A DNA stretch of 64,000 bases from Cloeon dipterum (lineage: Eukaryota; Arthropoda; Insecta; Ephemeroptera; Baetidae). The notes under the pieces are model-generated. The model saw nothing but the letters and a program-made list of their open reading frames with translations, had not been told where the DNA came from and searched no databases. The position numbers and the translations under genes are program-made. Of this stretch, positions 22,656 through 57,742 are shown piece by piece. Each line of letters begins with the position of its first letter. The stretch's first letter is position 1. The stretch covers positions 26,033,883 to 26,097,882 of the forward strand of contig NC_088789.1 of NCBI RefSeq assembly GCF_949628265.1, written 5' to 3'.

Positions 22656-25353
22656 ATGAAGATCTTCTTCGCCGTTCTGGCCCTTGCGGCCGCCGCTGCT
22701 GCACAGTCAGGTAAATCTTCAATTTCATTAGACCACTAAATGAACATAAAAATAGGAATGTTCACTACATTTTTTGTGCTCCGTTATGTAAGAAAAAAAT
22801 ATTAAATTCACAAAATAGCTTTTTTATTCAAGATTTATCACATTTGAACTTTTTGTGTAGTTTAAAATTTCTATATTTTGAAAAGCCATCACAAAGTGTG
22901 CCAAACTGTGTTCTACTTATTTAAAAATTTATTTATTATTTATTTTTCATGTGCCTCCACGTGGATAATGGCAATCATAGTCTATTGTGTTGGCAATCAC
23001 ACGAGGAAACCATCGTTCCAAGTGTTAATGCTGTGCAAATTAGCTACCGATCCGTTAGGATTCAAGTTAAAGATCGCATTATTTGCGTCATGCAGACGGC
23101 AGTCACGTCCGTACGGTTTGCGCTCGCGTAAAAAATATTCAAACAAACAAGCCACTCTTGTGCGGCATACTCAGAAACAAAGCTCAAGGTCCTGCTGCAG
23201 CCGCTCGTGCGGCATGTGAGAGAGAGAGACCGGCTCTCGGTGATCTCCTCTGCAGACGATATATTTATATTAGCTCTCGCGTTAATTACCTCTGCAAAGA
23301 GAAACCTGTGGGCGTTCGTGGAAGAAATCCACTCCGTTTCGTAACCCTAGACCAAATCTAGTCAATAAACAAATAAAATAAAATGGCACGAAAATAGCTC
23401 GGGTTTCGTATAAACAAATCAGTTAGGAAGTCTTGCCTCAGGGGAAAATGCTACTTAAATAGATTATAACATAAAATGCAAATTTTATAAACAAGGCCCA
23501 ATTTTGGTGCAATTAATCGTATTTTTGTTGTGAAACGTATGCAAATAATTTTTATTATTTCAACGTAAAATGAAATCACTTTTGTAACGAATGAAAGGAA
23601 TAACAATAATTATTCCTGTGACGCACGGCTTCTGATCTAATTAAAAACGCTCGAGCTGAGAATTCGGTAGCACACAGTCAGGCGTGGGCACTTTCTCTCT
23701 CGTCGACTCGTCGACAGGGTCAAGTTCGCACGCAACATCCGGAGCGGTGCATACCTGTGTGTTTTTGTTACACCCGCTGAATCTGCAGACCTTCAAATTT
23801 TGTTTTCACATTTTTCTATTGTAACCAAGTCTATAATAACTATTAATTAAATTTGTTTTTAAGTGAAATTTTTAATTAGATCTTAGGCAATTTCGAATGC
23901 AACTAACAATAGGCAATTAGGTTTTAAATTGCTTTTGTTCAACCAGCGTTTAGTTTTTTATTTTTTATTTAGACGCTACAGTTGAATCATCAATGTTTTA
24001 ATAATTGGTTTAATTGAGTGAAGAAACGTAGACAACTTGTCTGGCGTAGCTGTTGCGCAGGTTGCATAACTACTCTTTTTGGTCCCTATTTTCCAGTTCA
24101 TTAATTCTTGGTTTAATCAGTCGGGTTATCTCTAATTTTGACTCTAATAATTGCAGTGGACACATACAGCCAGGCGGCTCTGGACGTGCAGAGCAATCAG
24201 GGCAACAGCGACCCCAACGACCACGGCCTTGCTCCTCCCCCGGCAGACCACGTTTCCCCCATCGCCCGCCACATCCTGCTCCCCAGCCCCCAGGAAGAGC
24301 TGGAACAACCTGAGCTCGTCAGGGAGAAGCGTCAGTTTGGGTACGGTCGTCGCGGGTCAGTAATTTTTCTCCATTCTTTAGCGGAATATCGATTCTTATA
24401 ACTGGAGGAGTACTGGACAAAGTACGAAGGACACAAACAGCTCTGCATGAGGTTTGCTACACTGACAATGATGGTGATCGGGTTGGTGCTGCGCTCTTGG
24501 TCCAACGATGTGCATATTTATTAATAACTTTTAATAGATACTTACTAGTAATTTAAGTATGCAAAGTGATTTAAGCTGGTATAATTGAAGGTTTTGAGAC
24601 CACTGAAATTATTTTATTAATTTCAATCGGTTCTGGTGGGTGCTGGGACAAGCGAAAAATTAGCCAAGATTAATTTCTAATCATAAATTAATGCCATAAA
24701 TCAATGTAATGACTTAACATGCGTTTAGAATTTTAAAAGAAGCAAAAAAAAATCATTTTAATAATTCAGGATCTGTACAGTGGGATGTGAGGAGTACGTA
24801 GAGGTTCAATATTTTTTTTTATTTATTTAATACACGATCTTTTATATATTTGTAATTAAAATTTTCTTAAATGCATCATTTAAGGATAAGAGATTAACCA
24901 TCCAGGTCATAAATGGCTTCAATTGGCAACGCAAGTTGCGCATCTGAATCTCTAAATTTACTTCATCATTTAGTTTACAAATCTTTTGTTAGTATGAAAA
25001 CTTTGGACGGGCACAAAATATACATTTTAATAAAAGCATTTTTTGTAATAAAATTCATATTTAATTCCCACAGTTACGGACGTCATCGTGGATTCGGCGG
25101 TCGTCACGGCGGCTACGGCGGATATGGTGGCTACCCTGGCGGCTACGGCGGATACGGCGGCTACCCTGGCGGCTACGGCGGCTACCCTGGTGGCTATGGA
25201 GGCTACCCTGGTGGCGGCTTCGGCGGCAGCAGCTCCAACGCCAACGCGCAGTCGTCCAGCTTCTCCATCGGCGGCGGATTCGGACCCTTCCAGGGCTCCA
25301 TCTCGAGCAGCCAGGCCAGCGCCAACTCTGGCTCCTTCGGCTTCGGCCGCTAA
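22656..25353 (+). CDS. secreted Gly/Tyr-rich prepropeptide with REKR site and FGFGR end
   Basis: Exons 22656-22710, 24157-24355 and 25074-25353 join to 177 aa (phases 1 and 2). Residues 1-18 are a signal peptide (MKIFFAVLALAAAAAAQS). Residues 19-77 form an acidic, proline-containing pro-segment ending in LVREKR, a furin-type site, followed by QFGYGRR. The mature part has GGYGGYPGGYGGY repeats, then SSSNANAQSSSFSIGGGFGP, a Ser/Ala stretch and the C-terminus SFGFGR. Gly-Arg before the stop is the usual substrate for carboxypeptidase trimming and amidation. TATA is at 22594 and AATAAA at 25490-25495. The three-exon layout and LVREKRQFG are shared with the last gene of the cluster (56156-57742). 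Family unrecognised; antimicrobial peptide, cuticle or silk-like protein are all possible. Confidence 0.85.
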
Positions 25354-25745
25354 CCCTGAGGAAGGTTAACTCGACCACTCGCCGAACACACATCCCGCAC
25401 TGCCGGTGCATTTCTCTCGCCAACGATTGTTCACCTGAATATTCACATCGCATTTTTGTAAAATCGAAATCTCATCTCATCTACTTCTTAATAAAACGTG
25501 ATTTTAAATTATTTAAAAATATAAATATGGCGCCTCTTCATTTTTCCACTTTATGTATTGTTTCGTCATCACTATATAGGTCAAAAGCTCCTGGTTATAG
25601 AAAATGCAATATTTATGCAACTTAAATTATGAATTCCACGAGCAAAACAAGCAAATTTCAAGTAAATATTTATATTATCTAAAAAATGTAATATTAAATT
25701 AAAAGAAAATTTGTAGACAGTTCATTTTTACCTTTATTTAATATA

Positions 25746-26115
25746 TACTATCTAAAAATCAGGAAAAAGCCAAAAATTTCCCAGGATCGCCGTTTAAACC
25801 TTGTAGGGAAAATCGGCTCAAAGGTTTGCGTGCTAATCAATTGTCTCCCTACCACGATTTATTTCACTATTTAGGGAATTTTTCGTCAAAATTCGAGCAC
25901 CGTTGGATAGATCATTGCGAGAGAAATCGAAATCAAGTGAAAAATCATTTAATTATTCTAGAAATTCGGCAACATCTGAAATTTAACTGTTCCTCATATT
26001 TGATTTCATTATTGCACATTCTTGAGATAAACTGTATCTAAATTTCAAATAAAATAGCACTCAATGGACTACTTGCTCATTTCAACCATGCAATTTTTTT
26101 AATTATCGGGCTAAA
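25746..26115 (+). repeat. diverged repeat, partner at 53687-54077
   Basis: The two segments share words in the same order: AAAAATTTCCCAGG..CGC.GTTTA, AATCGGCT.AAA, ATTTATTTCAC, GATCA..G.GAGAGAAATCGA (weaker in the other copy), AATCAAGTGAAAAAT, AACTGTTCCT and CATGCAA with a T run. Identity is roughly two thirds by eye. No coding remnant is recognised. Confidence 0.5.
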
Positions 26116-27473: not shown

Positions 27474-27613
27474 CGTCCTGGTCCCGGCAAAATTGCGCAA
27501 CGTTCAACAAACACACAAATTTTCATTGTCGAATTGATTGTTGACCTTTTCTTGCAACAAGGAAATTCGCGTTTGGTTGTTGAAAGTTACGCAATTTTGC
27601 CGGGACCAGGACG
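27474..27613 (+). mobile_element. 140-bp MITE family, copy 1
   Basis: The ends are CGTCCTGGTCCCGGC and its inverse, extended by AAATTGCG and GTTCAAC/GTTGAA words, giving arms of roughly 35 bp. The interior has CAACAAGGAAATTCGCGTTT. The flanking AATT on both sides may be a target duplication or extra arm bases. It is non-coding. Confidence 0.8.
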
Positions 27614-27741
27614 AATTACTAACTTTAAAATGAAGCACTAATCCAGTAATTTGATCGGAACAGAAAAATTGCAAATTATGTTCTAATTAGGTCATTAAAA
27701 AGTGTTGAAAAAACAGTTACGTAATTTAAATTTATTAAAAT

Positions 27742-27881
27742 CGTCCTGGTCCCGGCAAAATTGCGTAACTTTCAACAACCAAACGCGAATTTCCTTGTTG
27801 CAACAAAAGGTCAACAATCGATTCGACATTGAAAATTTGGGTGTTTGTTGAACGTTGCGCAATTTTGCCGGGATCAGGACG
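27742..27881 (-). mobile_element. 140-bp MITE family, copy 2 (inverted relative to copy 1)
   Basis: It has the same 140-bp length and ends as copy 1, with the interior in the opposite orientation. The two copies lie 128 bp apart, so this locus as transcribed could fold into a long hairpin. The arms differ at only a few positions. Confidence 0.8.
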
Positions 27882-29966: not shown

Positions 29967-30046
29967 GGGGCTTTCCTCGGAGAAGTGGGGTGTGCTGCTG
30001 GTCCACTCTCGTCGGAAGGATAACCTGGCCGCGCGCGAGTATAAAG
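29967..30046 (+). promoter_or_regulatory. kappaB-like site and TATA box of the 30.1-kb gene
   Basis: GGGGCTTTCC at 29967-29976 fits GGGRNYYYCC. TATAAAG lies at 30040-30046, 52 bp before the ATG. The same site, spacing and flanks are kept in the duplicate promoter at 40669-40739. Because that copy is recent, the conservation is only weak evidence of function. Confidence 0.6.
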
Positions 30047-30097: not shown

Positions 30098-31075
30098 ATG
30101 AAGGTGTTCCTTGCAGTCCTCTCCCTCGCCCTTGTGGCCTGTGCCCAGGAGTTCGACCAGCTTCCTGGTGAGCGTTCGTTCTATTTTCAATATTTGAGCT
30201 GGCTGAGAGTGTGATATTTTTTTAAATTTATAATTGAATTGGCTTGAAATTAGAATTAAATCTCTTATTCAGATTCAGGACATTGAATCTTGATAGAAAT
30301 TGACGGATGTACAAACGGCTAGAGTAAATTTCCTTTTCCGTTGCTTGCAGTATATTTATTTGTGATTTCATTGTCATTTTTTTTATTATTTTTCAAAAAG
30401 CTCCACATTTTTTTTGTAACTATAGGACTCTAACCACATTAAAGAATTAAAATAGAACTGGTTATTTACACTTTGATTTAAAAATATAGCCAATTCAAAA
30501 ATTTAATCACAAGACTAATCCACCATAGTCTCTTGTTTTATTTTTTTTTTTGATTTATTAACTTACAAAAACTCAGATTTACCGGCCTTTTGTTTCTGAG
30601 GGCTCCTAATTATCCCATTTTAAAATATTTTATTCTATTATTTGCTAATTTTGTGACTATTTCAGAGGGTCTGCCACTCGTGTACGCCCGCGTGGCCCGC
30701 TCTCCCCAATTCGGAGGCGGCTTTGGCGGTCCCGGCTTTGGCGGCGGAAGGCGTGGTGGTTTCGGCGGCAGGAGACCCGGTTTCGGCGGTGGCGGCTTCG
30801 GCGGCGGCGGCTTCGGCGGTTCGTCCTCAAACGCGAACGCCGCCTCGCAGAACTTCAACTCCGGCTTCGGAGGCTTCGGTGGCTCCGCCTCCAGCGCCAA
30901 CGCTGCCTCTCAGTCCTTCAACGCCGGCGGTGGCCGCGGCGGTGCGTCCGGCTCTGCTGCCTCTGCCAGCGCCTCCAGCCAGAACTTCAACGCCGGCGGT
31001 CTCGGTGGCGGCTTCGGCGCCAGCGCCTCCAACGCCAACGCTGCTTCGCAGAACTTCAACTTCGGACGCCGCTAA
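30098..31075 (+). CDS. secreted Gly/Ser/Asn-rich prepropeptide, RVAR site, FGRR end
   Basis: Exons 30098-30167 and 30666-31075 join in phase 1 to give 159 aa. A signal peptide (MKVFLAVLSLALVACAQ) is followed by EFDQLPEGLPLVYARVAR. R32-V-A-R35 is a minimal furin-type site, followed by SPQFGGG. The mature region begins with GGFGGPGFGGG and RRGGFGGRRPGF, then has three SxxSNANAASQ-F-N-x-G blocks separated by FGGFGGS, GRGGASGSAAS and LGGGFGAS. The protein ends NFNFGRR, so trimming of the arginines would expose Gly for amidation of Phe. It has a TATA promoter and no clear AATAAA. A direct duplicate, damaged at both ends, lies at 40791-41819. Mobile, low-complexity composition prevents a confident family assignment. 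Confidence 0.87.
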
Positions 31076-33016: not shown

Positions 33017-34517
33017 ATGAAGCTGTTCGTTGCCGCTGCCCTCTTGGCGCTCGTCGCCACCTGCGCTTTTGCTGAGGAGTTCGTCGATTACGAGGACGCA
33101 GTGGAAGTCGCAGATTTTGGTAAGATGCTGTTTTATATTTACTTAAAAATTATTTAAATTTAAAAGAATTATGAAGTTAGTTAAGGAACCTAAAAGAGTT
33201 GTATAACGTGACCCCTCTGTGCGCTAGCGAGCGGGGAGGAGGATCATTGTAACCGAGGCCGTCGTCTCTTGATTAAATAAATTGCTCAAAGTGTTCAGAT
33301 TGTATTAATTGTTTGAGATCACCTGAAGACAATTAGTTGACTTAAAACAATTCATTTAAGTACGTAAGCCTCCATATTTGGACACTGTCCCGTCTAACAG
33401 AGACGGAGTTCGTTGGACCACGAGATCGAACGAGGCGAGTGACCGGCCGAAAGAGTTCAAGTTCAGTTTAATCGCGGGAACCAAAACAGAACAGGCGAGA
33501 TCTGGTCGCTGGCTCTTCTAGCTGCGCCAGACAGTAACGCGAAACATATTTAACCAAAGTTCCCTAGACGCGCGTTACAAAGTCAAATTTAAGACCTTTT
33601 TTACTGAAACGAAGACTCTTAAATTTTCTAGACCCAAGCCAAAAGGGGGAAAAAGTACTTCATTAATTTTTTCCTTCAGTGTTGGAGGAGAATATAAAAT
33701 GAAAAATTGAAGTTGCAGAAAAACAAATACGCATTAATTTACAAAAAATAGTATACAATAATTTAATCTTGCAAATTAAGAGAAAAATTTAAAAAATATG
33801 ATTAGTCAGGCCATTGATGAATTATGCAAAATTGTGTAATTTAAAGCCTTGAGCAGACAGTCCACTTGATTGGGTTGATACTCTAATCAGGAATCAAAGT
33901 AAATTACGAACTAAAAAACTCCAATTGTTACAGACGGTGCTAGAGTAGTTCGGTCGCCACAGTGGGGCGGCGGCCGCCAGGGATTCAATAGAGAAGGCCA
34001 GCATGGAGGCAGGAACCCCCCCGGCGGGCAGCGGGAAGGCGGCTTTGGAGGTGGTTTCGGTGGCCACCATGGAGGCGGCTTTGGAGGTGGTGGTTTCGGT
34101 CGCCCCCAGATCAGCTCCAGCTCGTCGAACGCGAACGCCGCCTCTCAGAACTTCAACTCCGGCGGATTCGGCGGTGGCGGTCTCGGCGGTTCTGCCTCAA
34201 ACGCCAACGCAGCCAGCAACAACTTCAACAGTGGCGGACGCCGTGGTGCGTCCGGCTCATCTTCCAACGCCGGTGCCGCCTCTCAGAACTTCAACGCCGG
34301 CGGATTCGGCGGTGGCGGTCTCAGCGGCTCTGCCTCTAACGCCAACGCGGCCAGCAACACCTTCAACAGTGGCGGACGCCGTGGTGCGTCCGGCTCGTCC
34401 TCCAACGCCGGTGCCGCCTCTCAGAACTTCAACGCTGGGGGTTTTGGAGGTCTGAACGGCGGAGCATCTGCTGCCAACGCCAATGCCGGCACCAGCAACG
34501 TTGGATTCGGACGTTAA
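33017..34517 (+). CDS. secreted Gly/Ser/Asn-rich prepropeptide, tandem copy A
   Basis: Exons 33017-33119 and 33934-34517 join in phase 1 to 228 aa, the longest of three tandem paralogs. The signal peptide is MKLFVAAALLALVATCAFA, followed by the acidic pro-segment EEFVDYEDAVEVADF and DGARVVR, with R38-V-V-R41 as a minimal furin-type site before SPQW. The mature chain begins GGGRQGFNREGQHGG, then GGFGGG/GGHHGGG, then SNANAASQNFNSGG modules. A 46-residue module is exactly duplicated in tandem (138 bp each, 34161-34298 and 34299-34436). The end is SNVGFGR, an amidation-type tail, where its paralogs have FGFGR. The intron contains a 380-bp insertion absent from copies B and C. AATAAA is at 34634-34639. 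Function is not recognised. Confidence 0.87.
33200..33579. mobile_element. 380-bp insertion in intron, possible solo LTR
   Basis: Comparison with the introns of tandem copies B and C shows this GC-richer block interrupting otherwise collinear sequence. It begins TGTATAACG and ends CGCGTTACA, so it opens with TG, closes with CA and has short inverted ends, as LTRs do. An AATAAA-like word lies inside (GATTAAATAAATTG). A 4-5 bp target duplication is not clean. Confidence 0.5.
34161..34436 (+). repeat. two in-frame tandem copies of a 138-bp coding module
   Basis: Each copy encodes 46 residues running from GGFGGGGL through SASNANAASN, GGRRGASGSS and AGAASQNFNA. The copies differ by a few mostly silent changes, so the duplication is recent and frame-preserving. 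Paralogs B and C have no such duplication. Confidence 0.9.
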
Positions 34518-36210: not shown

Positions 36211-36953
36211 ATGAAGCTGTTCGTTGCCGCTGGCCTCTTGGCGCTCGTCGCCACCTGCGCTTTTGCTGAGGAGTTCGTCGATTACGAGGACGCAGTGGAA
36301 GTCGCAGATTTTGGTAACATGCAGCTTTACATTTTATTTAAAATTATTTAAATTTAAAAGAGTTACGAGTTTGTTAAGGAACTTAAAAACACTCAAACTC
36401 AAGGCCATTATTCTGAAGCATTTTTTTATTGAAACGATGACCTTTAAATTTTCTAAAGAGCCAAAAGGGGCGAAAATTATTCATTTAAAGGTGTAAACTG
36501 CTTTGATTGAACGAATTTTTCTCAATTGTTGCAGACGGTGCAAGAGTAGCTCGGTCGCCACAGTGGGGCGGCGGCCGCCAGGGACTCTATGGAGGCAGGA
36601 ATCCCGGCGGCCACCGGGGAAACGGCTTTGTAGGTGGTTTCGGCGGCCACCGGGGAGGCGGCTTTGGAGGTGGTGGTTTCGGTGGCCCCCAGTTCAGCTC
36701 CAGCTCGTCGAACGCGAACGCCGCCTCGCAGAACTTCAACTCCGGCTTCGGAGGCTTCGGTGGCTCCGCGTCAAACGCCAACGCGGCCAGCAACACCTTC
36801 AGCAGCGGCGGCCGCGGTGGCGGGTCCGGCTCATCCGCCAACGCCGGTGCCTCCAGCCAGAACTTCAACGCTGGCGGCTTCGGAGGCCTGAACGCCGGAG
36901 GATCTGCTGCCAACGCCAATGCCGGCACCAGCAACTTTGGATTCGGACGTTAA
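36211..36953 (+). CDS. secreted Gly/Ser/Asn-rich prepropeptide, tandem copy B
   Basis: Exons 36211-36313 and 36535-36953 join in phase 1 to 173 aa. The signal peptide and the EEFVDYEDAVEVADF pro-segment are nearly identical to copy A, with one change in the signal (AAGLL for AAALL). The cleavage motif is ARVARSPQW. The mature chain has GGRNPGGHRGNGFVGGFGGH, SSSSSNANAASQNFNSGFGG, SASNANAASNTFSSGGRGGG and a last AANANAGTSNFGFGR block, so the end is an FGFGR amidation-type tail. It lacks the 46-residue duplication and the intronic insertion of copy A and is probably closest to the ancestral form. AATAAA is at 37089-37094. Confidence 0.88.
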
Positions 36954-37796: not shown

Positions 37797-38680
37797 ATGA
37801 AGCTGTTCATTACCGCTGCCCTCTTGGCGCTCGTCACCACCTGCGCTTTTGCTGAGGAGTTTGTCGATTATGAGGGCGAAGTGGAAGTCGCAGATTTTGG
37901 TAAGATGCAGCTTTACATTTGTTTGAAAATGATTTAAATTTAAAAGAAATATGGGTTTGCTAAGAAACCTAAAAAAAATCAAATTAAAGACCATAATTCT
38001 GAGGCCTTTTTTATTGAAACGAAAACCCTTAAATTTTCTAGGTCCTAAAAGAACCCAAAGGGAAATAATTTTCTTTTAAAGGTGTAAACTGCTTTGATCG
38101 AGCGGTTTTTTCTCAAATTTAGCAACCAATTTGGTTTAGCTTGTGTAAACCCAGAAATTTTGCAGTTTGTTAAAGTAATTCATTAATTTTTTCCTTTAGT
38201 TTTGGAGAAGGACATAAAATGAAAAATCACGTTACAAAAAGACAAAAGACGCAATATTTTAAAAATAGCATGCAATAATTTTATCTTTCAAATTAAGAGC
38301 AAAATTTAAAATATATAAATAGCTCTAAATAGTAAGGCCATTGATTAATCATGCAGAAGTTATATCACTCAAAAACCTTGATGAAAATGCAGCTCTAGTC
38401 CTTTTGATTGGGTTGATACTCTGATCAGGAATCACAATAAAATACCCCAATTGTTGCAGACGGTGCTAGAGTAGCTCGGTCGCCACAGCAGTTCGGTGGC
38501 TTGGGCGGCGGCCGCCAGATCAGCTCAAGCTCGTCGAAAGTAAACGCTGGCTCTCAGAAACTCAACAGCGGCGGATTCGCCAATAACGCCGGCGGTTTCG
38601 GTGGCGGTCTCGGTTTCGGTTTCAGTGGCCCTGCTGCCAACGCCAATGCCGGCGCCAGCAGCTTTGGATTCGGACGTTAA
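37797..38680 (+). CDS. secreted Gly/Ser/Asn-rich prepropeptide, tandem copy C (short)
   Basis: Exons 37797-37899 and 38460-38680 join in phase 1 to only 107 aa. The signal peptide (MKLFITAALLALVTTCAFA), acidic pro-segment EEFVDYEGEVEVADF and ARVARSPQQFGG processing motif are intact. The mature chain is much shorter than in A and B: GGGRQISSSSSKVNAGSQKL, a FANNAGGFGGG stretch and AANANAGASSFGFGR. The SNANAASQNF block has drifted to SKVNAGSQKL, suggesting relaxed constraint or specialisation, yet the FGFGR tail is unchanged. AATAAA is at 38790-38795. Confidence 0.85.
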
Positions 38681-40668: not shown

Positions 40669-40739
40669 GGGGCTTTCCTCGGAGAGGTGGGGTGTGCTTT
40701 TCCACCGGAAAGATAACCTGGCCGCGCGCAAGTATAAAG
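40669..40739 (+). promoter_or_regulatory. duplicate promoter with kappaB-like site and TATA
   Basis: GGGGCTTTCC at 40669-40678 and TATAAAG at 40733-40739, in the same arrangement as at 29967-30046. The surrounding 150 bp is nearly identical apart from a few small indels. Confidence 0.6.
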
Positions 40740-40790: not shown

Positions 40791-41819
40791 ATGAAGGTGT
40801 TCCTCGCAGTCCTCTCCCTCGCCCTTGTGGCCTGTGCCCAGGAGTTCGACCAGCTTCCTGGTGAGCGTTCGTTCTATTTTTTTTTTGCTCTTTTTATCCC
40901 TGTCCGTTAACCGGGAAGGGCGCGCACTGCACTAGCACGAATGCTGAAACCCGGGTCCTAATAACACCGCGAACGGATAACATGGGCGCACCAGGCCGCC
41001 AGCAGGGACCCAGCCCACTCAAGGGCCACATGCCTCCGCACCGTGGACATTTTTTGAAACGCTACACATTCGTCCCGTGAAGCCGAATCACGCATGCTGG
41101 AAAGGTGCAAACCAGCAAGTAGCGAGTCGCCTCCCAGCCCGTTGAGCAATTTGAGCATTTCGAGTCACTAAACTAACCACTTTTTGCCATCTCTGACATT
41201 GGGTAACCAGTATTAGATCTCCGAACAGCTCAAATACCTCCCATCGCTTTTTGACACTCCTGAGAGTGAATTAACAATGCGAGCCAACGAGCTGGTTACA
41301 TTCTTTTTTAAAAATCTGCTCAATTGTTATGTAACTATAGGACTAACCATATAATAGAATGAAAATAGTTCTCGTTATTACCACTATGATTTCAAAATAT
41401 ATCCAGTTGAAAAATTTAAACATTGGGCATTACCACCATAGTCTTGTTTCATTTTTTTTAATATGAGCCTATAAAATCTCAGATTTACCGGCCTTTTGTT
41501 TCTGAGGCCTCCTAATTATCCCAGTATAAAATATTTTATTATATTATTTGCTAAAATTGCAGGCGGCGGAAGGCGTGTTGGTTTCGGCGGCGGCGGCTTC
41601 GGCGGTTCGTCCTCAAACGCGAACGCCGCCTCGCAGAACTTCAACTCCGGCGGTGGCTTCGGAGGCTTCGGTGGCTCCGCCTCCAGCGCCAACGCTGCCT
41701 CCCAGCCCTTCAACGCCGGCGGTGGCCGCGGCGGTGCGTCCGGCTCTGCTGCCTCTGCTAGCGCCTCCAACCAGAACTTCAACGCCGGCGGTCTCGGCGG
41801 CGGCTTCGGCGCCAGCTGA
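40791..41819 (+). CDS. truncated duplicate of the 30.1-kb gene, processing signals lost
   Basis: Exons 40791-40860 and 41563-41819 join in phase 1 to 108 aa. Exon 1 encodes a signal peptide identical to the 30.1-kb gene. A deletion has removed the original splice acceptor together with the codons for the R-V-A-R site and the first Gly-rich block; a new acceptor (ATTGCAG) now joins the signal exon directly to GGGRRVGFGGG in the correct frame. At the 3' end about 90 bp has been lost, so the reading ends FGAS-stop, with TGA taken from the former 3' UTR and the FGRR tail gone. The intron also carries an unrelated insertion (about 40882-41135). It could still make a secreted protein without a pro-site or amidation, or be a pseudogene; intact frame and promoter keep both open. 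Confidence 0.6.
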
Positions 41820-44105: not shown

Positions 44106-44921
44106 ATGGGCTTCGTCTCGGCAGCTGCTCTCGTTTTGGTCGTCGCGGTCGCGGCCAACGCGCAATACGCGGTGCCTGACCCCTACACTGGCCTGGTGTT
44201 CGTCTACCCTGGCCTAGGTAAGTTGTATGCTTCGTCATTAAAGCCACAATAACCAAAAATATGGATATTTAAAATGTTTTCCATTCAAAAAAATGTTTTT
44301 TATATGATCAGCATGCTTTGTAAATTAATTTTATTTAAATTATCCAGATGATTTCTCAAACAATAGATTAAACAAAAATTAAGAACTTAATTTGTGCTTT
44401 ATTTTTAGCAGATTTAAATTAATAAAACCTATTTTTTGTTTTTTTTAGTGCCTGGCTACAATGCCCCCCTGATCCGACTTGAAAGGTCGCCTCAGAGATA
44501 CCAGGGTGGCAACAGGCCGAACAACAGACCAGGCGGTAACAGGCCCGGAAACTTCCAAGGGGGTGGTGCCAACGGATTCAACCAGGGTGGTTTCAACCAG
44601 GGTGGATTCCCTGGGGGCGCTAACGGCTTCAACCAGGGTGGCTTCAACCCCGGCGCTGGATTCCCTGCTGCGGGTGGTGCCAGCGGCAGCTCCAGCTTCG
44701 CCTCCTCGTCTAGCCAGAGCTTCAACCAGGGTGGTCCGGGCGGCACCTCCGCCTCCGCCAGCAACTCAAACGCGGGCACCAGCTCGTTCGGCTCAGGTGC
44801 TGGTCTAATCGCCGGTGCAGGCAACGCCGGAGCCTCTGGCAGCGCCGGGGGCCTCGGTGGCATCGGGGGATCCAACAGCGCCGCCAACGCCGGAACCCAG
44901 ACTGTGGCTGTCGGAAAATAA
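44106..44921 (+). CDS. secreted Gly/Asn/Gln-rich prepropeptide with RLER site
   Basis: Exons 44106-44217 and 44449-44921 join in phase 1 to 194 aa. The signal peptide is MGFVSAAALVLVVAVAANA. The pro-segment QYAVPDPYTGLVFVYPGLVP is not acidic, unlike in its neighbours. R47-L-E-R50 precedes SPQRYQGG, matching the SPQ start of the 30-38 kb genes. The mature chain has RPGGN units (GGNRPNNRPGGNRPG), NGFNQGG repeats, then a Ser/Ala-rich half with SSSFASSSSQSFNQGG and SNAGTSSFGSGAG. It ends TVAVGK; Gly-Lys before the stop is again an amidation-type end. TATA at 44058, AATAAA at 44954-44959. The RPGGN start resembles the gene at 52953-55023. Function unrecognised. Confidence 0.85.
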
Positions 44922-45913: not shown

Positions 45914-48275
45914 TTATTTGGGGAAGGCGATCGAGTCTGCCTCGGTGGTGCCCCCGCTGGTAGAGGACAAAACGGTTCCAAACTTCTGGTTCCGATTGCC
46001 AATCAGGTCGTAGTCACCATAGTCAGTGAAGCCCGCGGGTCTCCTGTTATGTCCTCCGTTGAATCCACCGTGAGGGCCGCCGCGATGACCGCCTCCGTAC
46101 GGTCCGCCATAGCCCCCACCTCCGTAGGGTCCACCTTGGAAGCCTCCGTAGGGGCCGGGCTGCCTGCCGTAGCCTCCGTGGTGTGGACGATTGTAGCCTC
46201 CTCCGCCACCGTGGTGCGGCCGACCATATCCGCCTCCGTACTGTCCAGGTCCCAGTCCGCCGCCAAACGAAGAGCTACCCGCGTTGGCTTGGGCATTGGA
46301 GGCACCGCCGCCGCCAAAGCCGCCTCCGAAGTTGCTGGAGCCGGCGTTGGCTTGGGCGTTGGAAGCTCCGACTCCAAAGCCCCCGGGGCCTCCTCCAAAG
46401 TTGCTGGTGCCTGAACTGGCTTGAGCATTTGACGCACCAGCGTTGAGGCCTCCAAATCCGCCCCCGAAGTTGCTGGAGCCGGCGTTGGCTTGGGCGTTAG
46501 ATGCACCGCCTCCGATGCCTCCAAAGCCACCCCCGAAATTACTGGTTCCTGAAGATGCTTGAGCATTGGATGCTCCGGCCCCAAAGCCCCCAGGGCCTAC
46601 TCCAAAGTTGCTGGAGCCCGCACTGGCCTGGGCGTTGGATGCTCCGACCCCGAAGCCCCCGGGGCCTCCTCCGAAGTTGCTGGTGCCTGAACTGGCCTGA
46701 GCATTCGACGCACCAGCGTTGAGGCCTCCAAATCCGCCTCCGAAGTTGCTGGAGCCCGCACTGGCCTGAGAGTTGGAAGCCCCGCCTCCGAAGCCCCCGT
46801 TGCCGCCTCCGAAATTACTGGTTCCCGAAGATGCTTGAGCGTTGGAGGCGCCACCTCCGAAGCCACCGAGTCCACCGAGTCCACCACCGAACGAGTTAGA
46901 CCCTGCTGAAGCGCTGCTCGAGGCACCACCGCCTCCGAAGCCGCCTCCACCGGACGAGGAGGAGAACGCCAGGCTAAAGCTGGAGCCGCCTCCTCCACCT
47001 CCTCCGCCTCCTCCAAGCAGCGGCCCCACGATTCCGTTGCCGACGCCGTGGGCGATTTGGTGCAGGAGCCCCAAGCCACCGAACCGGTTGCCCAGGGTAG
47101 TGTTGGTCCCGTTCACGCCTCCGACAGGTGCGGAAGCATTCTGGGGGTTCGGGACTACGGCAGGAGCAGGAACCTTTCCACCCTGGACGCGGTTGTCGAG
47201 TGGCTTCGGGTTTTTGGTCGCTTGGGTCACGGGGGCGGCAGTGCTGGGGGCGGCAGTGGACGCTTGAATCGGTTTCGGGGCCGAGTCGGGGAAGGCGACG
47301 GCGTCAACATCTGCAAGAGCTTGAAATTATAATTTGCATTGGCATCAATGGGTTGTTTGCAATGACATTGTTGACTTTGATCGTTTTCGCTGACTCATTC
47401 ATGAATCAAAAGGTCGCCGGGGAAATCCAACGATTGTACTCCAATCACGATCAAATGCAGCCAGAATAATAATCATTGGTTTACTGTTTTATTTTAAAAT
47501 TAGCGCACCTGCTGCTTCGGTTGTTGTGGTTGTTCTGGCCGTCGTCGGTGGTCTGCGTGGTCCAGCAGGCTTTTTGGAAGCAGAGGTAACAGCTTCAGAC
47601 AGGACGGCATCTTGAAATAAAATATAATTATATAACCATCAGCTTAAATACCTAGCAAAATTTATGTAAATTAATGATAGCTTTTAAAATTTGTTTGTTT
47701 AAATTGTTGATGCTAAATAAATGCCTATTTTACACTGTGTATCAAAGGAAAATACAAATAAAACCATCTAAAAATTTCAACAATAAGCAGAAAAATACAT
47801 GACTTAATTAGAATGTTAGAAAATTTATTTTTAATCTGTTTTGCTTTCCATTGGATGTATTGTCATAGTGCGCGCCAGTGCAAAATCTTCATTATTTCTT
47901 TCACTAAATGCGCATTATTAATTAAAACCAGACTGGACTAATTAATTAAATGATTAATTGTTATCAGTAGCGAGAAACAACAGACAGAAACCTCAGCCAA
48001 ACAAAATTTGCGGCACGCCAAAACCATGCTTCCTGCAGATTAGTGGCGAACAGGCAGTAAATACAAACACATCCTTTCCAAAAAAGTCACTGACATCTGC
48101 TCCGGTCAAGCCAGATTTCAACTCAGCAATTAATTTTGTTTGCTATTCGGTAAAAGCGTAATAAACTAATGTTTGGGAGAAAAAGAGACCTACCTTGGCC
48201 GAGTGCTGAGGTTGCGAGCGCAGCAAAGAGCAGTGCGCACAGAGAGCATCGTAAAATTCGTGTTGGCCGCCGCAT
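45914..48275 (-). CDS. large secreted Gly/Ser/Asn repeat protein, the only minus-strand member
   Basis: Exons 48275-48194, 47610-47509 and 47310-45914 join (both introns phase 1) to 526 aa. MRRPTRILRCSLCALLFAAL followed by ATSALGQ is a signal peptide. Exon 2 encodes a Thr/Pro-rich segment (PRRPPTTARTTTTTEAA). After an Ala/Pro/Thr linker and an N-glycosylation-like NGTNTT comes a short hydrophobic stretch (GLGLLHQIAHGVGNGIVG), poly-Gly, and about nine 23-residue repeats of the type GASNAQASSGTSNFGGGxGG (residues about 214-415). The tail is Tyr/His/Gly-rich, then non-repetitive (DYGDYDLIGNRNQKFGTVLS) and ends IAFPK. It has neither a clear R-x-x-R pro-site nor an amidation tail, so it may be a structural relative of the small peptides. 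No TATA is seen. A likely poly(A) signal on the minus strand is at 45785-45790. Confidence 0.85.
46240..46857 (-). repeat. coding array of 69-bp repeats in 138-bp dimers
   Basis: The 23-residue units alternate between two types, SSGTSNF and (S/N)AGSSNF, so the true period is 46 residues (138 bp). The dimer from SSGTSNFGGGPGGFG to the next AGSSNF occurs twice almost unchanged, which points to array growth by unequal exchange. The last units are irregular. Confidence 0.85.
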
Positions 48276-48874: not shown

Positions 48875-49693
48875 ATGGCTCGGTTTTTTGTACCGTTTCT
48901 CGTCATCTGCGTGCTCATCGCTGCAGCTTCTGCCCAGCTGTATGCGCCGAGTGAAGGTAAAATTTTCAACTTTGGTTACAACTGGATATTTTATTCTTTG
49001 TGTTTATTAAACAATTAATTCAAATGCGTCACAAAATTCTGCAATTCATCCTGGCAGCGGAATATTGCGCAACTTTCAAGAACCAAACGCGAATTTCCTT
49101 GTTGCAAGAAAAGGGCAACATTAAATTTGACAGTGAAAATTTGGGTGTTTGTTGAACGATGTGCAATTTTACAGCGACCTCGAATTTAATTTTTAATTAT
49201 TTTTCTTCTAGAAGCAATTTTTTTAATTTTCTCTCATTCTGGTTCATGTTAATTCATTGAAATTGTGTATAGGATTTTTCTGTCAATATGAGAATATTTT
49301 TCTCCATTAAGAAACGTGGCCCGTTTGGCAATTCATAGTCAATGTTAGTAATTTCATAATCACAAGGTAAAAAAAAAATAAATTTTAGACCAGTATGTAC
49401 GTGAGCGTCGGTCACCACTGCTAAGCCTTTTCGGCGGTGGCGTGCACAAGGGAGGCGGCCACTACCAACAGCACGGCCACAGCTATAAAGAAACCTACGG
49501 CATAGGCCCCTTTTACGCCAGCTTCCAGCAATCGTCAATCAAAGGCCACGGGGCCCATTACGGCGGCGGATTCCACAAGGGACCTGCCCACCACGGCGGC
49601 TACCACGGCGGCTACGGAGGCGGCCACGGAGGCGGCTATGGAGGCGGCCACCACGGTGGCTATGGAGGCGGCTATGGAGGACTCTTCTCGTAA
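48875..49693 (+). CDS. secreted Gly/His-rich prepropeptide with RERR site
   Basis: Exons 48875-48956 and 49389-49693 join in phase 1 to 128 aa. The signal peptide is MARFFVPFLVICVLIAAASA; the pro-segment QLYAPSEDQYV is 11 residues; R32-E-R-R35 is a good furin site, at the same residue numbers as in the genes at 50174 and 52078. The mature chain starts SPLLSLFGGG and contains ETYGIGPFYASFQQSSIKG, a non-repetitive block shared with the 52.1-kb gene (TYGIGPLRATFQQANI). The rest is GGHHGGYGGGY repeats, rich in His, ending GGLFS. His/Gly-rich composition suits metal binding or antimicrobial action, but this is inference. AATAAA overlaps the stop (49692-49697), with another at 49829. A 140-bp MITE sits in the intron. 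Confidence 0.87.
49044..49185 (-). mobile_element. 140-bp MITE family, copy 3
   Basis: The same element as at 27.5 kb, orientation as copy 2, more diverged: ATTCATCCTGG at one end, CGACCTCGAAT at the other, with the interior CCAAACGCGAATTTCCTTG kept. It lies inside the intron of the 48.9-kb gene. Confidence 0.75.
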
Positions 49694-50173: not shown

Positions 50174-51750
50174 ATGACGAAGATTTTGCTTGGATTTGTT
50201 CTGCTTTGTGCGATCGTGGCAGCTGTAAATTCGCAGAAGGTTGAACAAGAAGGTAGGCTCTTTTTATCAGTCAAATTTTAATTATAAGGATTTAAGTGTT
50301 CTGGACTGTGATACATTTTAACAAACGCGGTTTAATAATTTTATCTATATCGTATTACGTTTCACAAAATACTTCAAAAATCTTTCAATTGGAATTATTA
50401 TAATTAATAATTTAAAATTAGCAACTTTAAAATATACATAATTCTAAATTGTTTATTTCGATGTAATCCAAAATCGCACATGTACTCATTTTTTTTTTAT
50501 TAATGGAATAAAAATTATTTTGAATTGAATTGAAACACACGTCCTGGTCGCGGTGAAATTGCGCATCGTTCAACAAAAACACTCTCATTTTCACTGTCGA
50601 ATTGACTGTTGCCCTTTTTTGCAACAAGGTAATTCGCGTTTCGTAATATGAAAGTTGAGCAATTTTTCCGCTACTGTGACAGCGGCAATTGCCAGTAACA
50701 TCCGGCAAAGGGTATAATTTTAGTTGTTGTTTCGCAATACTCGAATTGTATGTGCCAATGTGTCATTACGAGCTCTTACTGGCTAATCTATTTATAACTA
50801 TATAAATAACGAAGATCATAAAATTCAATTAATGAGAACTGGCGTGGTCTAGATTTTCCCGACAGTCATATTTTTATATACTAGATTTGCTTGTCATGGC
50901 TATCACTTTGCTTTCTGTAACAATGCAACTTTCCATTATGAACGTAATATTGAATATTGACTGAAGATGTTATTTCTGTGGCGAGAAATTTAAAATTTAT
51001 CAAATTCAAACGCGTATGGCAAGAAAAGTATCTCTGAGGGAAGCTTAAAAAATACGTACAACTTGATAAATTATATAGATATAACATTGTTGCCCGAAAT
51101 GCGTTTATTAAAATTATTAATTAATAAAATTTAAGTTGTACATGTCATGACTAACAGTATTTAAATTTTAAAATAAAAATACCGACCTTATTTAATTAAT
51201 TTAAATAAAAATGAATAATTTTATTTATTTTATAAATTTTAAAAATATTCAAAAATATAATTTAATTAAATATACTGGTTCTTTTATAAATAAACAATTA
51301 AAAATTAAAAATAACGTATATTTATGCTAAATAATTTTTGTGTAATTTATTCATTTTGCTGTTTGTAATAATAGAGCAATTTTAGAGTTTCGCAGGCTAT
51401 ATCGCAACACTTTTTTATTGCACTAGTTGGTCAAAATGATGTTCTATTTCAAATTGAAATGTTGGAAAAGCCACGATAAAGCAATATTAGAAAGAAATAT
51501 TATACTTTTATCCTTAAGTAATTAGAAAAATAATAATTCTTTTCTAGAAGCTCAAGTGGTGCGAGGTCGTCGTGCTTCTGGCTCCTCTGGCTTCTTTTCT
51601 CAATTCAGAAAAATTGGCAGCCGCATTCGATCTTTTACCCGGCTCGGGACGCAGCTTTTCAGACCTCTCTTTTCTCTCGTCCCCAGAGGAGGCTCCGGAG
51701 GATTCCGGAAAAGGAGGCATGCAGTCATGACTGAGAAACTGTTCAAATGA
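50174..51750 (+). CDS. precursor of a short cationic, amphipathic peptide (RGRR site)
   Basis: Exons 50174-50252 and 51548-51750 join in phase 1 to 93 aa. The signal peptide is MTKILLGFVLLCAIVAAVNS; the pro-segment QKVEQEEAQVV is acidic; R32-G-R-R35 is a furin site. The mature part (36-93) is unlike its neighbours: little Gly at first, then SGFFSQFRKIGSRIRSFTR followed by LGTQLFRPLF, where Arg/Lys and aromatic or aliphatic residues recur at 3-4 spacing, as in an amphipathic helix of about 25 residues. A hinge-like PRGGSGGF follows, then RKRR, a second cleavage site that would release a ten-residue tail. The layout matches linear cationic antimicrobial peptides of insects in general, but no named family is recognised. 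The intron is 1.3 kb and carries a LINE tail and a MITE. No clear AATAAA; ATTAAA lies at 51791. Confidence 0.82.
50490..50533 (+). repeat. LINE-like 3' tail with (TTGAA)n
   Basis: A T run, then AATAAAAATTATTTTGAATT followed by GAATTGAA: the same kind of tail as the reverse transcriptase remnant at 35790-35812. Only the terminus is present, in an intron, immediately before MITE copy 4. Confidence 0.5.
50540..50680 (+). mobile_element. 140-bp MITE family, copy 4
   Basis: CGTCCTGGTCGCGG at the left end, CCGCTACTGTGAC at the right, with the interior TTGCAACAAGGTAATTCGCG. Orientation matches copy 1. Arms have diverged most in this copy. Confidence 0.7.
50840..51062 (+). repeat. inverted partner of 29128-29345
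   Basis: See 29128-29345. Matching words: AGATTTTCCCGACAG, TTGTCATGGCTATC, CAACTTTCCATTATGAACGT, ATTTCTGTGGCGAG and CTCTGAGGGAAGCTTAAAAA. Confidence 0.5.
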
Positions 51751-52077: not shown

Positions 52078-52489
52078 ATGGATCGTCTGCTTTTTGCCTT
52101 CCTGCTAATATCCGCCGTGGCAGCGATAGTCCACTCCCAAGAGACACTGAATCGAGGTAAGGAATTGGTTTTTTAATAAATCAATGCATTCTTGGATTTT
52201 AAAATTAAATTTAATCACTATATATATTCCCAAATCTTTCCTAATTATTTCAGATAATGAACTCGTAAGAGAACGCCGATTTGTGAACCCGTTTGCCAGG
52301 ACGCAGCGGATTACGGGCAACACCCGCACCACCGGCCGCATCAACACGCAGACCTACGGGATCGGACCTTTGCGAGCCACTTTTCAGCAGGCCAACATCA
52401 GGTCCAGAGGATCTTTCACCGCAAGACAACCAGTTCGATCCAATAGAGGAGGATTATTTGGTGGACGTGGATGGGGAGGGTTCTTCTAG
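52078..52489 (+). CDS. secreted Arg-rich prepropeptide with RERR site
   Basis: Exons 52078-52156 and 52254-52489 join in phase 1 to 104 aa, the most compact gene of the cluster (intron 97 bp). The signal peptide is MDRLLFAFLLISAVAAIVHS, the pro-segment QETLNRDNELV, and the site R32-E-R-R35. The 69-residue mature peptide is strongly basic through Arg: FVNPFARTQRITGNTRTTGR, then INTQTYGIGPLRATFQQANI, then an Arg/Ser stretch and GGLFGGRGWGGFF. It shares TYGIGPxxAxFQQxxI with the His-rich neighbour at 48.9 kb, though the two otherwise differ, so this block is probably functional. AATAAA is at 52552-52557. A cationic antimicrobial role is a reasonable inference. Confidence 0.87.
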
Positions 52490-52952: not shown

Positions 52953-55023
52953 ATGTCTCAAGCGTTGTTTCTGCTCGTCCTTACAATTAGCGCCGCCTGC
53001 CTCGTCTCGGCGGCTCCCCTGACGCGCCCAGGTATTGAAACTCTTTTCTCTTTCTTCCTTAACGAGATAGGAAAACGGAAGAAGAAATTTATCACATGAT
53101 TAATTATTTTTATTTTACAATTTTTAAATTATATAATTATGTAAGAAAAACTATAATATCGTCAATTTAAGATCTAAGATAAGCCATCTGAATGTTTATT
53201 GTACGATTACTATGATCACTAATTAATTACCATCAGCTTATTCAGCACAGTTAAACTTTCAGTTTGAAAAGTCTATAGGATTTACACATATGCATGTATA
53301 TGGTAGTCGATTTGTAGGAACAACTTATACATCGTAAACCGATTTTGCTTTTGCATCATGATGGAAACTAAACGCGGCAATAAAATTTATATTTTTAACA
53401 TAAATTATTACGTTGCTTAAAAAAATTAAACAAAATCAAAATTCATTTATTACAATTTAATGGTAAAATTTTTTAATATAAAAATATTTTTATTAAAGAA
53501 AATAAAATAAGTTTTAATTTAACAAACGTACCTATAAATATTTTATAACTATTTCTTCTTAATTATGCAGATTTACTATTTTACTTCTTGCGTTTTTAAA
53601 CGTTGCATACCAATATTTTTGTCGTCTGTTTTGTAGTAAGGCTTTACAGAAAATTTGTGAAAAATCCTCTCTACCTGTGCTCAAAATACTATATAAAAAT
53701 TTGGAAAAGGCTAAAAAAATTCCCTGGTTGCGCTGTTTATATTTTTGAGAAACCGGCTTAAAAGTTAGCAAGCTTATTAAACGGCGTGCATATATTATTG
53801 TCTCATTTTTGTAAAATTCCAAATTTATTTCACAGTTTATGCAATATTTTCTCGTTATTCGCACTCCATTGGATATAAATCTTAACGTGAGTGATCAAAA
53901 TCAAGTGAAAAATAATCGGAAAACCATTCCGTTTTTCGAGAAATTAGGTGAAATCTGTAATTAAACTGTTCCTTGGTCATCATTTCATTAGGAAATGTTG
54001 CTAAATTTCACAATCGATGAACTATTACTCTTGCTATAGTCAACAATGCAACATTTTCTTAATTGTTGGCCTGTAAAGCTCCCTTTGTTTAATTGAAGAA
54101 TCGGAATGATACTGCAAAAGCCAGGAAAATGCTTGTTGCCAACGCATAAACTCGTCCTTTAGGATTCAGTTAAAGCCTAAATTGACCTAAGAAGAACTGT
54201 ATTTTTTTTAGAAAATTGGCTGGAAAGTTATCGTGCTTTTCAAATGGTAATGGCTGTCTCCTTACTTGAAATCCGATTTAATTTAAAAACCAAGAGTTTC
54301 CCAATAAGTGGCATACACCGTTGAACAGATCTCGACGAGAGGAATCGGAATATGCCAAGAAAACACGTTCAAGCACTGTAAATTTTGGAGGAAATTGGTA
54401 AATTTTGAATTTTTAATGTAGGAAGGTCCATTTTTTATTATTGCTAATTGTTGAACAAATTGTTTATGGCATCCAACAATTCAAATAATTTTTAATTGTT
54501 GCCCACTATCATTCCACTTTAAACTTGAGTCAGAGTCGTGGAGATGATAGTAAAGCAAAACAAAAAATAATCAACATTTTTTTTTATTTTGACAGGGGAA
54601 GATGAGCCATTGCTGAGGGTACGTCGTCAGTTCTACCCTGGCCGCCAGCAGTACAACCGTCCCGGCGGCAATAATTACAACCGACCGGGCGGCAGCAGAC
54701 CCGGTGGTGGCAATTTCCAGCAGCCCGGCTTCCCGTCTGGAGGCGCCAGCGCCGCGAACGCTCAGGCGCAAGGCTTCCAGTCGGGCAATTTCGGGGCTAA
54801 CCACGCCGGCACCATGACTCAAGGCTTCGCCTTTGGCCCGCAAGGCATCACGGGCTCGGCCGGACAGTCGTTTTCGCAAAACTACCAGCTGCCTGGAGGC
54901 ATTTCGGCCAGCGTTTCCGGCTCGGGCACGTTCGGCGCCGGCCCCGGAGGAATCACTCAGGGCGGCGCCAACTCCGTAACAGTCACTGGACCAAATGGAC
55001 AGAGAATTCCTGTCAGGGGATGA
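52953..55023 (+). CDS. secreted Gly-rich prepropeptide with conserved C-terminal domain (RVRR site)
   Basis: Exons 52953-53031 and 54596-55023 join in phase 1 to 168 aa. Signal peptide MSQALFLLVLTISAACLVSA, pro-segment APLTRPGEDEPLL, site R34-V-R-R37. The mature chain begins QFYPGRQQYNRPGG with RPGGN-type repeats, then a non-repetitive C-terminal region of about 90 residues: SAANAQAQGFQSGNFGANHA, MTQGFAFGPQGITGSAGQSF, a Gly/Ser strand-like stretch, and NSVTVTGPNGQRIPVRG. The same region is found in the 56.2-kb gene with high similarity. Its alternating Gly/polar pattern suggests beta structure. The 1.56-kb intron holds two repeats. No TATA is evident; AATAAA is at 55090-55095. Family not recognised. 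Confidence 0.87.
53687..54077 (+). repeat. diverged repeat, partner of 25746-26115
   Basis: It lies inside the 53.0-kb gene's intron, directly before the 420-bp MITE copy. See 25746-26115 for the shared words. Confidence 0.5.
54105..54513 (+). mobile_element. about 410-bp MITE-like element, copy 2
   Basis: Direct counterpart of 31745-32166, with GGAATGATACTG at one end and its near inverse at the other. By eye the copies are roughly 85-90 percent alike with small indels. Located in an intron, 82 bp before the acceptor. Confidence 0.7.
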
Positions 55024-55249
55024 AATAACCCCAACTCGGTGCCTTTGCTTCCTTGTTATTTATGAAAATATATACACGTAGAAAAAGTCAATAAAATAAT
55101 TAACTTGATTCTTGAATGTTGACGTTTTATTCGCTGTGATGTCTTCTTAAAATAGAAATACGTTCCTTTGAAGTAATTAAAAGCCTATTTACTTTTGTCA
55201 AGAAGACGAAGGTTTTGTATTAAACGATTTTTGCCAATATTGCCACCAA

Positions 55250-55760: not shown

Positions 55761-56155
55761 TGTTAAAAAAATCAAACATAATATATTTTGAAAAAAAAAA
55801 CTCACAAGGAACGTGATTTATAGTTAAAAATTAACTCTAATAAATGTTCTTAAAGACCCAAGGTCGGCGCAATGCGCCGGAAACGTCTCATCGCTTCTGA
55901 ATGCGATATTTACAATTTTCGAGCAAGGTTGAATTTGAGGAACTTGCACGCATATCTACTTCCCATTTTTCGTGTGGTAACGCTCGGCTGACCCTGTGTC
56001 GAGACGAGTGGCGAAAAGTGGACTTCCCCGCCACAAACACAGCCTCTCTCTACTACCTGTAAATAATAAGACGCTCGCACTCAAGGAAGGATTCAAAGTT
56101 GCGGTCCGGAGTGTGCGAGACATTAGTCTGAGCTTGAACTTGCTCCTCGAGAAAA

Positions 56156-57742
56156 ATGCATCTCTCCGCGCTGCTGCTGCTGGTTTGCGCCACCGCATTC
56201 GTCACTGCTGCACCAGTCGATCAAAGTGAGTAGAATATATCATACTAATTAGCTTAAAATACAAATAACTTTAGCATATCTTACGTAATATAGTAAAAGA
56301 TTGAAATTTCGGTGTTTTTGCTTCTTTAAATATTTTAAAAACAGAATCAGAAACCTATTAACTTCGAGAAATAACAAGTTGGATAAAAGTTCATTTGGAT
56401 AAGACAAATTAATCTTTAATTTTAAAATTAGAAATACTGACATTCGTTTGGAGATTTCACTAGCACGCAGTTTTTAAACTGAAACAAGTGGAATTCAAAC
56501 AATTTTAAGGTTAAAATGGCAAATTGTAGAAATTAAATAAAACAGTTTTATTTTCCAAAACAAATATATTGAATAAAAATCAGACAAATCATACTTCCTG
56601 TTATATGTATTAGTGCCAATGCCAATGAAGACTAGAAATGTGTTAAAATGTAACGTTTCTTTGGCCCATAGAGAGATGCAATACATAATATTAATCCTTG
56701 TGTTTTCTATGATCTGTTGCCAGGTGTCGTAAGCGTCGCAAGTCAACCTGAGTTGAAACCTGAGCAGCTAACTGAAGATGGCGCCTCACTAGTCAGGGAA
56801 AAGCGCCAGTTTGGAGGTGGCGGTGAGTAAATTTAACAATGCCACACAGGTCTTATTTTAAGATCTAAAAAAGCGTTTTAATTATTAACACGTGTTTTTT
56901 TTTAATTGCCAACAAATATTTTTAATTGGTTTTCGAAACAAATGAGAGGTTTTATAAGAACAGAACTAGCAGGTAGATGCACTTAAATAAATTGATGCAG
57001 CTTCCTCATAATGCATTGTTTTTCAGAAATTCTTATTATTATTATTTATTATTATTATTTATTTTTAACCAATTAAAAAAAACACAAACAATTATTTGTA
57101 ATGAGCTCATAAAGTAAAACATATATGTGAATAAAATTTAATGCTAATTGCATCAAGTGCAATAAGTAAAGCATAAATTAGGTAAGAGTAAAAAACAGTA
57201 GATAACTCCCCACCTCTTTGAAAAAAATCATGGGTTTCTCATCAAGGGTAAAATAATTGTTTCACTTGACATATAAAAAAAATAAATTTACGGCAATTAA
57301 TTAACAACCCAGAAAAATTAATAAATAAAAAATACTGAAAATATTTTAAATAGCAGGAAGGAGAAACAACGGCTTCAGAGGCAGGCCAAACGGAGGAGGT
57401 TTTGGCGGCCCCGGATTCGGCGGCCCTGGATTCGGCGGTCCCGGCTTTGGAGCGCCCTCGTTCGGTTCGAGCGCCGCCAACGCCCAGGCACAGGCATTCA
57501 ACGCAGGAAACTTCGGCGCCTCGCACGCCGGCACTCAGACGCAGGGCTTCCAGGTCGGTCCGAACGGCATCACGGGCGGCTTCGGCCAGTCGGTGGCGCA
57601 GAACTACGACATCGGCGGCTACAAGATCAACGTGGCCGCGTCCGACACGCTCAGCTTCAACAACAACCAAGCGTCGAGAGGAGGCAGCAACGCGGTCACC
57701 ATCACTGGACCAAATGGCCAGAGGATTCCCTACAACGGATGA
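56156..57742 (+). CDS. secreted Gly-rich prepropeptide, paralog of the 53.0-kb gene (REKR site)
   Basis: Exons 56156-56225, 56724-56822 and 57357-57742 join (both introns phase 1) to 184 aa. Signal peptide MHLSALLLLVCATAFVTA; a 33-residue acidic pro-segment ending GASLVREKR; then QFGGGG. The pro-region and three-exon layout match the first gene of the cluster (22656-25353), while the C-terminal 90 residues match the 53.0-kb gene: SAANAQAQAFNAGNFGASHA, TQTQGFQVGPNGITGGFGQS, then VAQNYDIGGYKINVAASDTL and NAVTITGPNGQRIPYNG. It therefore links two subgroups. The middle holds GGPGFGGPGFGGPGF repeats. AATAAA is at 57814-57819. No TATA or perfect kappaB site found. Confidence 0.87.

Follow-up and report, generated by a model that had tools for sequence, protein, structure and literature searches.

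In this study we describe a tandem array of genes encoding secreted pre-pro-proteins in the mayfly Cloeon dipterum and suggest, going by its sequence, that convertase-processed defence-type peptides are the best single reading of it. The window, i.e., the whole stretch of DNA analysed, comprises 64,000 nucleotides (C4:26,033,883-26,097,882) of a 190.1-Mb genome that is assembled into five chromosome-size contigs (43.2, 37.5, 37.1, 36.4 and 33.2 Mb) and five small contigs. Coordinates are window-based, also beyond the right end of the window, unless a contig is named.

Gene models and extent of the array

Thirteen genes, numbered G1 to G13, lie between 22656 and 57742. In our hand-built models all thirteen splice to an open reading frame across GT..AG borders. 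Exon 1 of each encodes a hydrophobic N-terminus, called as a signal peptide by eye and from simple hydropathy, and the first intron is in phase 1 throughout; eleven genes, i.e., all but G6 and G8, carry an R-x-x-R site. Both counts agree with a preliminary description of this DNA, which had proposed thirteen genes with a signal exon and a phase-1 intron in 35 kb, eleven of them with R-x-x-R. That description also had R-x-x-R close to where exon 2 begins, which is true of most carriers but not of the three-exon genes G1 and G13, in which ~56 and ~25 residues of exon 2 come before it; likewise, its small secreted precursors are secreted by build, but G8, on the minus strand and 526 residues long, is not small. 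Since G3-G5 and G2/G6 are duplicates, the 13 proteins count as fewer than 13 independent cases. When the first 45 residues encoded downstream of exon 1 (the first 70 for G1 and G13) were shuffled, R-x-x-R, found in nine of ten families, was expected by composition in 4.3 (P about 0.001). The site thus occurs beyond chance, but the margin is modest because these parts are Arg-rich; its position at the border between acidic and basic sequence, seen by inspection in all eleven genes carrying it, seems to speak more strongly than its frequency.

All genes but G8 are on the plus strand. G1 (22656..25353; exons 22656-22710, 24157-24355 and 25074-25353; 177 residues) has an acidic pro part and REKR, followed by the Gly/Tyr-rich mature part QFGYGRRG... 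In G2 (30098..31075; exons 30098-30167 and 30666-31075; 159 residues) RVAR precedes SPQF and Gly/Ala/Asn/Ser repeats. The pro part of G3 (33017..34517; exons 33017-33119 and 33934-34517; 228 residues) is very acidic and ends in RVVR before SPQW, while G4 (36211..36953; exons 36211-36313 and 36535-36953, donor GTAACATG; 173 residues) and G5 (37797..38680; exons 37797-37899 and 38460-38680; 107 residues) both have RVAR, followed by SPQW and SPQQF, respectively. G6 (40791..41819; exons 40791-40860 and 41563-41819; 108 residues) is a shorter duplicate of G2, without R-x-x-R and possibly decaying. G7 (44106..44921; exons 44106-44217 and 44449-44921; 194 residues) reads RLER, then SPQRY, and G8 (45914..48275, minus strand; exons 48275-48194, 47610-47509 and 47310-45914) contains Gly-rich repeats such as ASNAQASSGTSNFGGG, with no R-x-x-R within the first 45 residues of exon 2. 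RERR is found in G9 (48875..49693; exons 48875-48956 and 49389-49693; 128 residues), ahead of SPLLSLF and a Gly/His/Tyr-rich part, and in G11 (52078..52489; exons 52078-52156 and 52254-52489; 104 residues), ahead of an Arg-rich mature part of net charge +11; between them, G10 (50174..51750; exons 50174-50252 and 51548-51750; 93 residues) has RGRR and a 58-residue mature part of net charge +12 with a predicted helix. G12 (52953..55023; exons 52953-53031 and 54596-55023; 168 residues) shows RVRR before QFYPGRQQ, and its relative G13 (56156..57742; exons 56156-56225, 56724-56822 and 57357-57742; 184 residues) REKR before QFGGGG.

The array is larger than this cluster, extending over ~144 kb to a right end at about C4:26,200,128. 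The same architecture recurs right of the window in at least five His/Gly-rich precursors (128066-128992, 131718-132290, 144834-145740, 147506-148370 and 150222-151055), five Tyr-rich ones (154662-155436, 156721-157487, 160598-162175 and 163044-164571, the third in order having exon 2 at 159887-160105 and an exon-1 match at about 158737-158874) and one further Gly-rich gene (165700-166246, VRVVRSPQY). In all, 22 precursors with R-x-x-R, 11 in the window and 11 outside, are spread over about 144 kb. Gly/Tyr-rich exons at 87065 and 92407 carry VRSVRSPHRY and VRAVRSPYRY, and a search for a signal exon at these two found none; a His-rich exon 1 lies at 134307, without a good partner exon, and a candidate His-rich exon-2 match at about 142596-142790. 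In genome-wide searches G3 gave 9 matches, G9 3, G10 2, G12 3, the Tyr-rich Y1 9 and the His-rich H4 10, and all 36, self-matches included, fall inside the array stretch, with the proviso that the search scores best candidates only and could miss distant copies.

The extended stretch holds other frames as well. At 103188-104174 and 106152-107174 lie two long frames rich in Gly, with GGGGGP or NPGGG repeats and signal-like exons nearby. A gene with RTARA and repeats of Gly, Asn and His (HNHFHFGPNGNNGN) occurs twice, at 98488-100451 and 113038-113465, the latter copy seemingly split across two frames. A signal-bearing frame at C4 about 26,124,932 (91050-91562) matches the beta-trefoil model RicinB_lectin_2 with 26.5 bits (cut-off 25.6). 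Related repeats occur in introns and between genes (49056-49179, 50546-50672 and about 27480-27880); those in the introns of G9 and G10 match at 84% over 128 bases on opposite strands, the stretch at 27.5-27.9 kb is similar by eye, and possibly all are remnants of a mobile element.

Kinship, charge and predicted structures

A pre-pro part kept beside a differing mature part is seen in the neighbours G9, G10 and G11. These resemble one another in the pre-pro part (z 13.1, 10.3 and 14.7; none of 300 shuffles as good), and the mature parts of G9 and G11 share TYGIGPxxAxFQQ (z 11.7), whereas mature G10 resembles neither of them (z 1.0 and 0.7; 49 and 58 of 300 shuffles as good). BLASTP gave E 5e-6 for G10-G9 over residues 1-36 and E 5e-11 for G11-G9. 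Because shuffling destroys the natural order of signal peptides, it raises z artificially; an internal control is given by the 21 pairs that include H4 or Y1 (of 66 pairs in all), none of which exceeded z 4.5. In many pairs the mature Gly-rich parts of G1, G2, G3, G7, G12, G13 and the outside Gly-rich gene at 166 kb resemble each other more than their composition explains. G3 and G4 are 99.0% identical in exon 1 and 89.4% in the remainder. After exon 1 the ratio of nonsynonymous to synonymous substitution rates (dN/dS) is 0.37 for G3/G4, 0.40 for G3/G5, 0.44 for G4/G5, 0.25 for G2/G6 and 0.36 for G12/G13, values that are point estimates, with dS above 1 in the last pair, and that are in line with what constraint would produce; in exon 1 the pairs with G5 have 0.7 to 0.9, from very few changes.

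The charge pattern was followed in 21 of the 22 precursors with the site (all but the third Tyr-rich gene), with signal cleavage placed by a simple rule, such that single values may shift. In all 21 the pro part is acidic, with a net charge of -1 to -8, and the mature part, 41-187 residues long, has a net charge of 0 to +12; only 14 of 1843 mature residues are Asp or Glu. Gly makes up 14-40% of the mature parts in the 11 in-window genes with the site. If cut after R-x-x-R, the mature parts are predicted to begin with SPQ, QF, AAD, AP or similar.

The mature part of G10 is predicted to form an amphipathic cationic helix. Modelled without an alignment, its exon 2 reached a mean predicted local distance difference test score (pLDDT) of 68.9, with a helix at residues 15-42 (28 residues) and block pLDDT of 75-89 over residues 11-40, and its best 18-residue hydrophobic moment of 0.75 was equalled by 47 of 2000 shuffles. 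For exon 2 of G12, aligned with G13, AlphaFold2 gave a mean pLDDT of 63 and a predicted template modelling score of 0.42; of the five long strands in the model, all but the first have a block pLDDT of about 70-89, and the C-terminal part is predicted as long antiparallel beta strands. Searches of solved structures returned no trustworthy relative.

Promoters and possible functions

We analysed 28 promoters, i.e., the 250 bases upstream, on either strand, of the start codons of the 13 in-window genes and of 15 further genes or candidates. The kB-like motif GGGRNWYYCC is present in five of them (G1, G2, G6, Y1 and Y2), as compared with 0.63 expected from GC-matched windows of the region, and none of 2000 draws reached five; the reversed motif occurs in 0 of 28. 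The site of G1, GGGGATCCCC (22575..22584, strand not assigned), lies 81 bases 5' of the start codon, just upstream of the TATA box, while GGGGCTTTCC is found on the plus strand 131 bases before the start codon of G2 (29967..29976) and 122 bases before that of G6 (40669..40678), and also precedes Y1; the Y2 site is GGGATTTTCC. Rel-type DNA-binding domains are encoded at three genomic places, and the domain model also takes in NFAT. Some array genes may answer to Rel factors, and most show no such sign.

Hence, we favour, at a probability of roughly 0.45, an array of convertase-processed defence-type peptides. Its genes, arranged in tandem and coding for secreted pre-pro-proteins, show a signal-like exon, a phase-1 intron, an acidic pro part, R-x-x-R and a mature part nearly free of Asp and Glu. 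A furin-like convertase would cut after R-x-x-R in the secretory path and free basic Gly-, His- or Tyr-rich peptides together with one cationic helical peptide (G10), and these would act extracellularly as defence effectors, in haemolymph or on epithelia. The acidic pro part might hold the basic part in an inactive or unassembled state up to cleavage, and part of the genes may be under NF-kB (Rel) control. Within families, tandem duplication enlarged the array, with the pre-pro part retained and the mature part changed or replaced in G9-G11. It is doubtful whether the proposal can be widened to mayfly humoral or epithelial defence as a whole residing in a single lineage-specific array of over 20 peptides (Gly-, His- and Tyr-rich and helical ones) released by a convertase, partly NF-kB-controlled, in which a fixed pre-pro part is joined to unrelated mature peptides.

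Several known systems invite comparison. The Drosophila Bomanins are small secreted effectors that depend on Toll, lie in a tandem cluster and came to light through expression and not by a family search; the array resembles them in its tandem small secreted genes and differs in that Bomanins are short and not Gly/His/Tyr-rich. Glynavicin of Nasonia is, going by its name, Gly-rich. By description, glynavicin, hisnavicin, navitripenicin and nahelixin likewise bring together His-rich, Gly-rich and one helical kind in one genome (accessible parts of PMC4508827, PMC10542623 and PMC2853521), the host being a wasp, thus of another insect order; in addition, the intron of the navitripenicin and nabaecin genes is in phase 0 (PMC2853521, in part), in contrast to phase 1 in all 13 in-window genes. 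In the attacin family (attacins and diptericins), a furin site RVRR precedes the Gly-rich domain of DptB and attacin C (PMC6857651, in part); the succession of signal, pro part, RVRR-type cut and Gly-rich mature part is what 11 of our 13 gene models show, and the long antiparallel strands predicted for G12 are a further likeness. The array proteins differ from the attacin family in their low-complexity repeats and in having neither an Attacin domain match nor, in our searches, a solved relative. Neither Attacin_N nor Attacin_C was found in the ten in-window proteins scanned, and a genome-wide search for Attacin_C found none, as was also the case in the control genomes.

The preliminary description had read the cluster as immune effectors while allowing for cuticle or silk genes. 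The charge pattern of all 21 precursors, the behaviour of G9-G11, the helix predicted for G10 and the five kB-like promoters are consistent with its first choice, and the following observations weigh against it. The kB-like sites represent only three independent families, 23 of the 28 promoters have none within 250 bases, and four spellings of the motif had been tried first on the 13 genes. Relish-type GGGRAYYYYY is not enriched in the 13 genes or the 28 promoters (P 0.16 to 0.23 by sites and 0.36 to 0.45 by genes), and GATA sites, which usually accompany kB sites in fat-body genes, are found in 4 genes versus 11.1 in random windows, the latter being AT-richer than the promoters. By K/R count the five His-rich mature parts have net charge 0, and across genes the charges of pro and mature parts are uncorrelated (rho 0.10, P 0.66), which argues against fine charge matching. 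H4 and Y1 have no pre-pro similarity to the Gly-rich genes that the shuffle test detects. Because their pairs never pass z 4.5, the sequences do not show that the His- and Tyr-rich families descend from the Gly-rich ones; they share the build of the Gly-rich genes, and a common ancestor is not shown. Finally, a Pfam scan (E up to 1) of 13 array proteins, ten from the window (all but G4, G5 and G6) and the rest from a minority of the outside genes, gave no family above its cut-off, antimicrobial ones such as attacin included; H4 scored 25.1 bits against the low-complexity GRP model (cut-off 30). This agrees with the earlier statement that no named family was recognised.

The same scan bears on a quite possible alternative, that the proteins are structural secretions of cuticle, gut lining, eggshell, silk or cement, in which the pro part would block sticky Gly/Tyr/His-rich chains from assembling in the cell and the convertase cut would permit assembly outside. 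No cuticle, chorion or silk domain was found in the 13 proteins, nor any match to an established cuticle or chorion family, which the preliminary description had named as contrary to its view; low-complexity cuticle proteins, however, often lack a Pfam domain. Glycine-rich cuticle proteins of the CPG/CPLC type are, like the array, secreted, Gly/Tyr-rich and clustered, and the high Gly content of the mature parts, repeats such as SSNANAASQNFN, the Tyr- and His-rich members, the long repeat protein G8 and the other repetitive Gly-rich frames of the stretch all suit such a role, as do the TATA boxes, usual for highly expressed tissue-specific genes and present in 23 of 28 promoters versus 7.9 expected. 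CPG/CPLC proteins are not known to be characterised by an acidic pro part and a convertase site. Mature parts almost free of Asp and Glu, the predicted short cationic helix of G10, which is not a low-complexity chain, and promoters enriched for kB-like sites but not for FtzF1 or ecdysone response element (EcRE) sites (28 promoters) speak against structural secretions. Tandem arrays with a kept pre-pro part and a changing mature part, as in G9-G11, are usual for gland peptides, yet saliva, accessory-gland or defensive secretions without an immune or cuticle role are improbable here, as no specific feature indicates glands and the kB-like sites would be left unexplained. Neuropeptide-like precursors, the cut pieces of which would be signals, share the signal sequence and R-x-x-R, and Gly/Tyr-rich 'neuropeptide-like' insect proteins are known; mature parts as long as those of the 21 precursors make this reading highly improbable.

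Sawfly 'hisnavicins', His-rich genes resembling those for antimicrobial peptides (AMPs), are orthologous to cuticle proteins (PMC10542623, in part), which favours structural secretions over defence peptides; by analogy, this case is a warning that Gly/His/Tyr-rich clusters are easily labelled AMPs without proof. In Cloeon, genes with high aquatic-phase expression are enriched for cuticle development as well as for defence response (accessible part of PMC7250882), which does not separate the two readings. According to the available part of a 2024 review (PMC11011964), no member of 20 known AMP kinds was found in the Ephemeroptera examined, where detection may have failed; the review raises the question of the reason. 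Were the array immune, it would provide the effectors reported missing in mayflies (same part of PMC11011964); were it structural, it would represent a large group of lining proteins matured by a convertase, with no name that we found. On either reading, the difference between pre-pro and mature parts in G9-G11 would be a clear case for the origin of new secreted peptides.

Neighbouring frames and other observations

Left of the array, the minus strand at 7843-8256 carries part of a gene of glycosyltransferase family 8 (31.7 bits, cut-off 24.3) that by eye resembles glycogenin, and a plus-strand frame at 2488-2688, Ash2-like by eye, has a sub-cut-off SPRY match (18.1 versus 26.3 bits). Elsewhere in the genome, an Orco gene is located at C2:29,671,556-29,672,190, with three exon pieces 67-70% identical to an Orco query. 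This query matched two PDB Orco chains, which we take to be those of a mosquito and a fig wasp, with E 6e-96. The Orco gene points to an insect lineage that lies outside the winged group uniting flies and wasps, since a 54-residue stretch of it shows, by hand count, 9 differences from five PDB sequences (of eight matched) that agree with one another.

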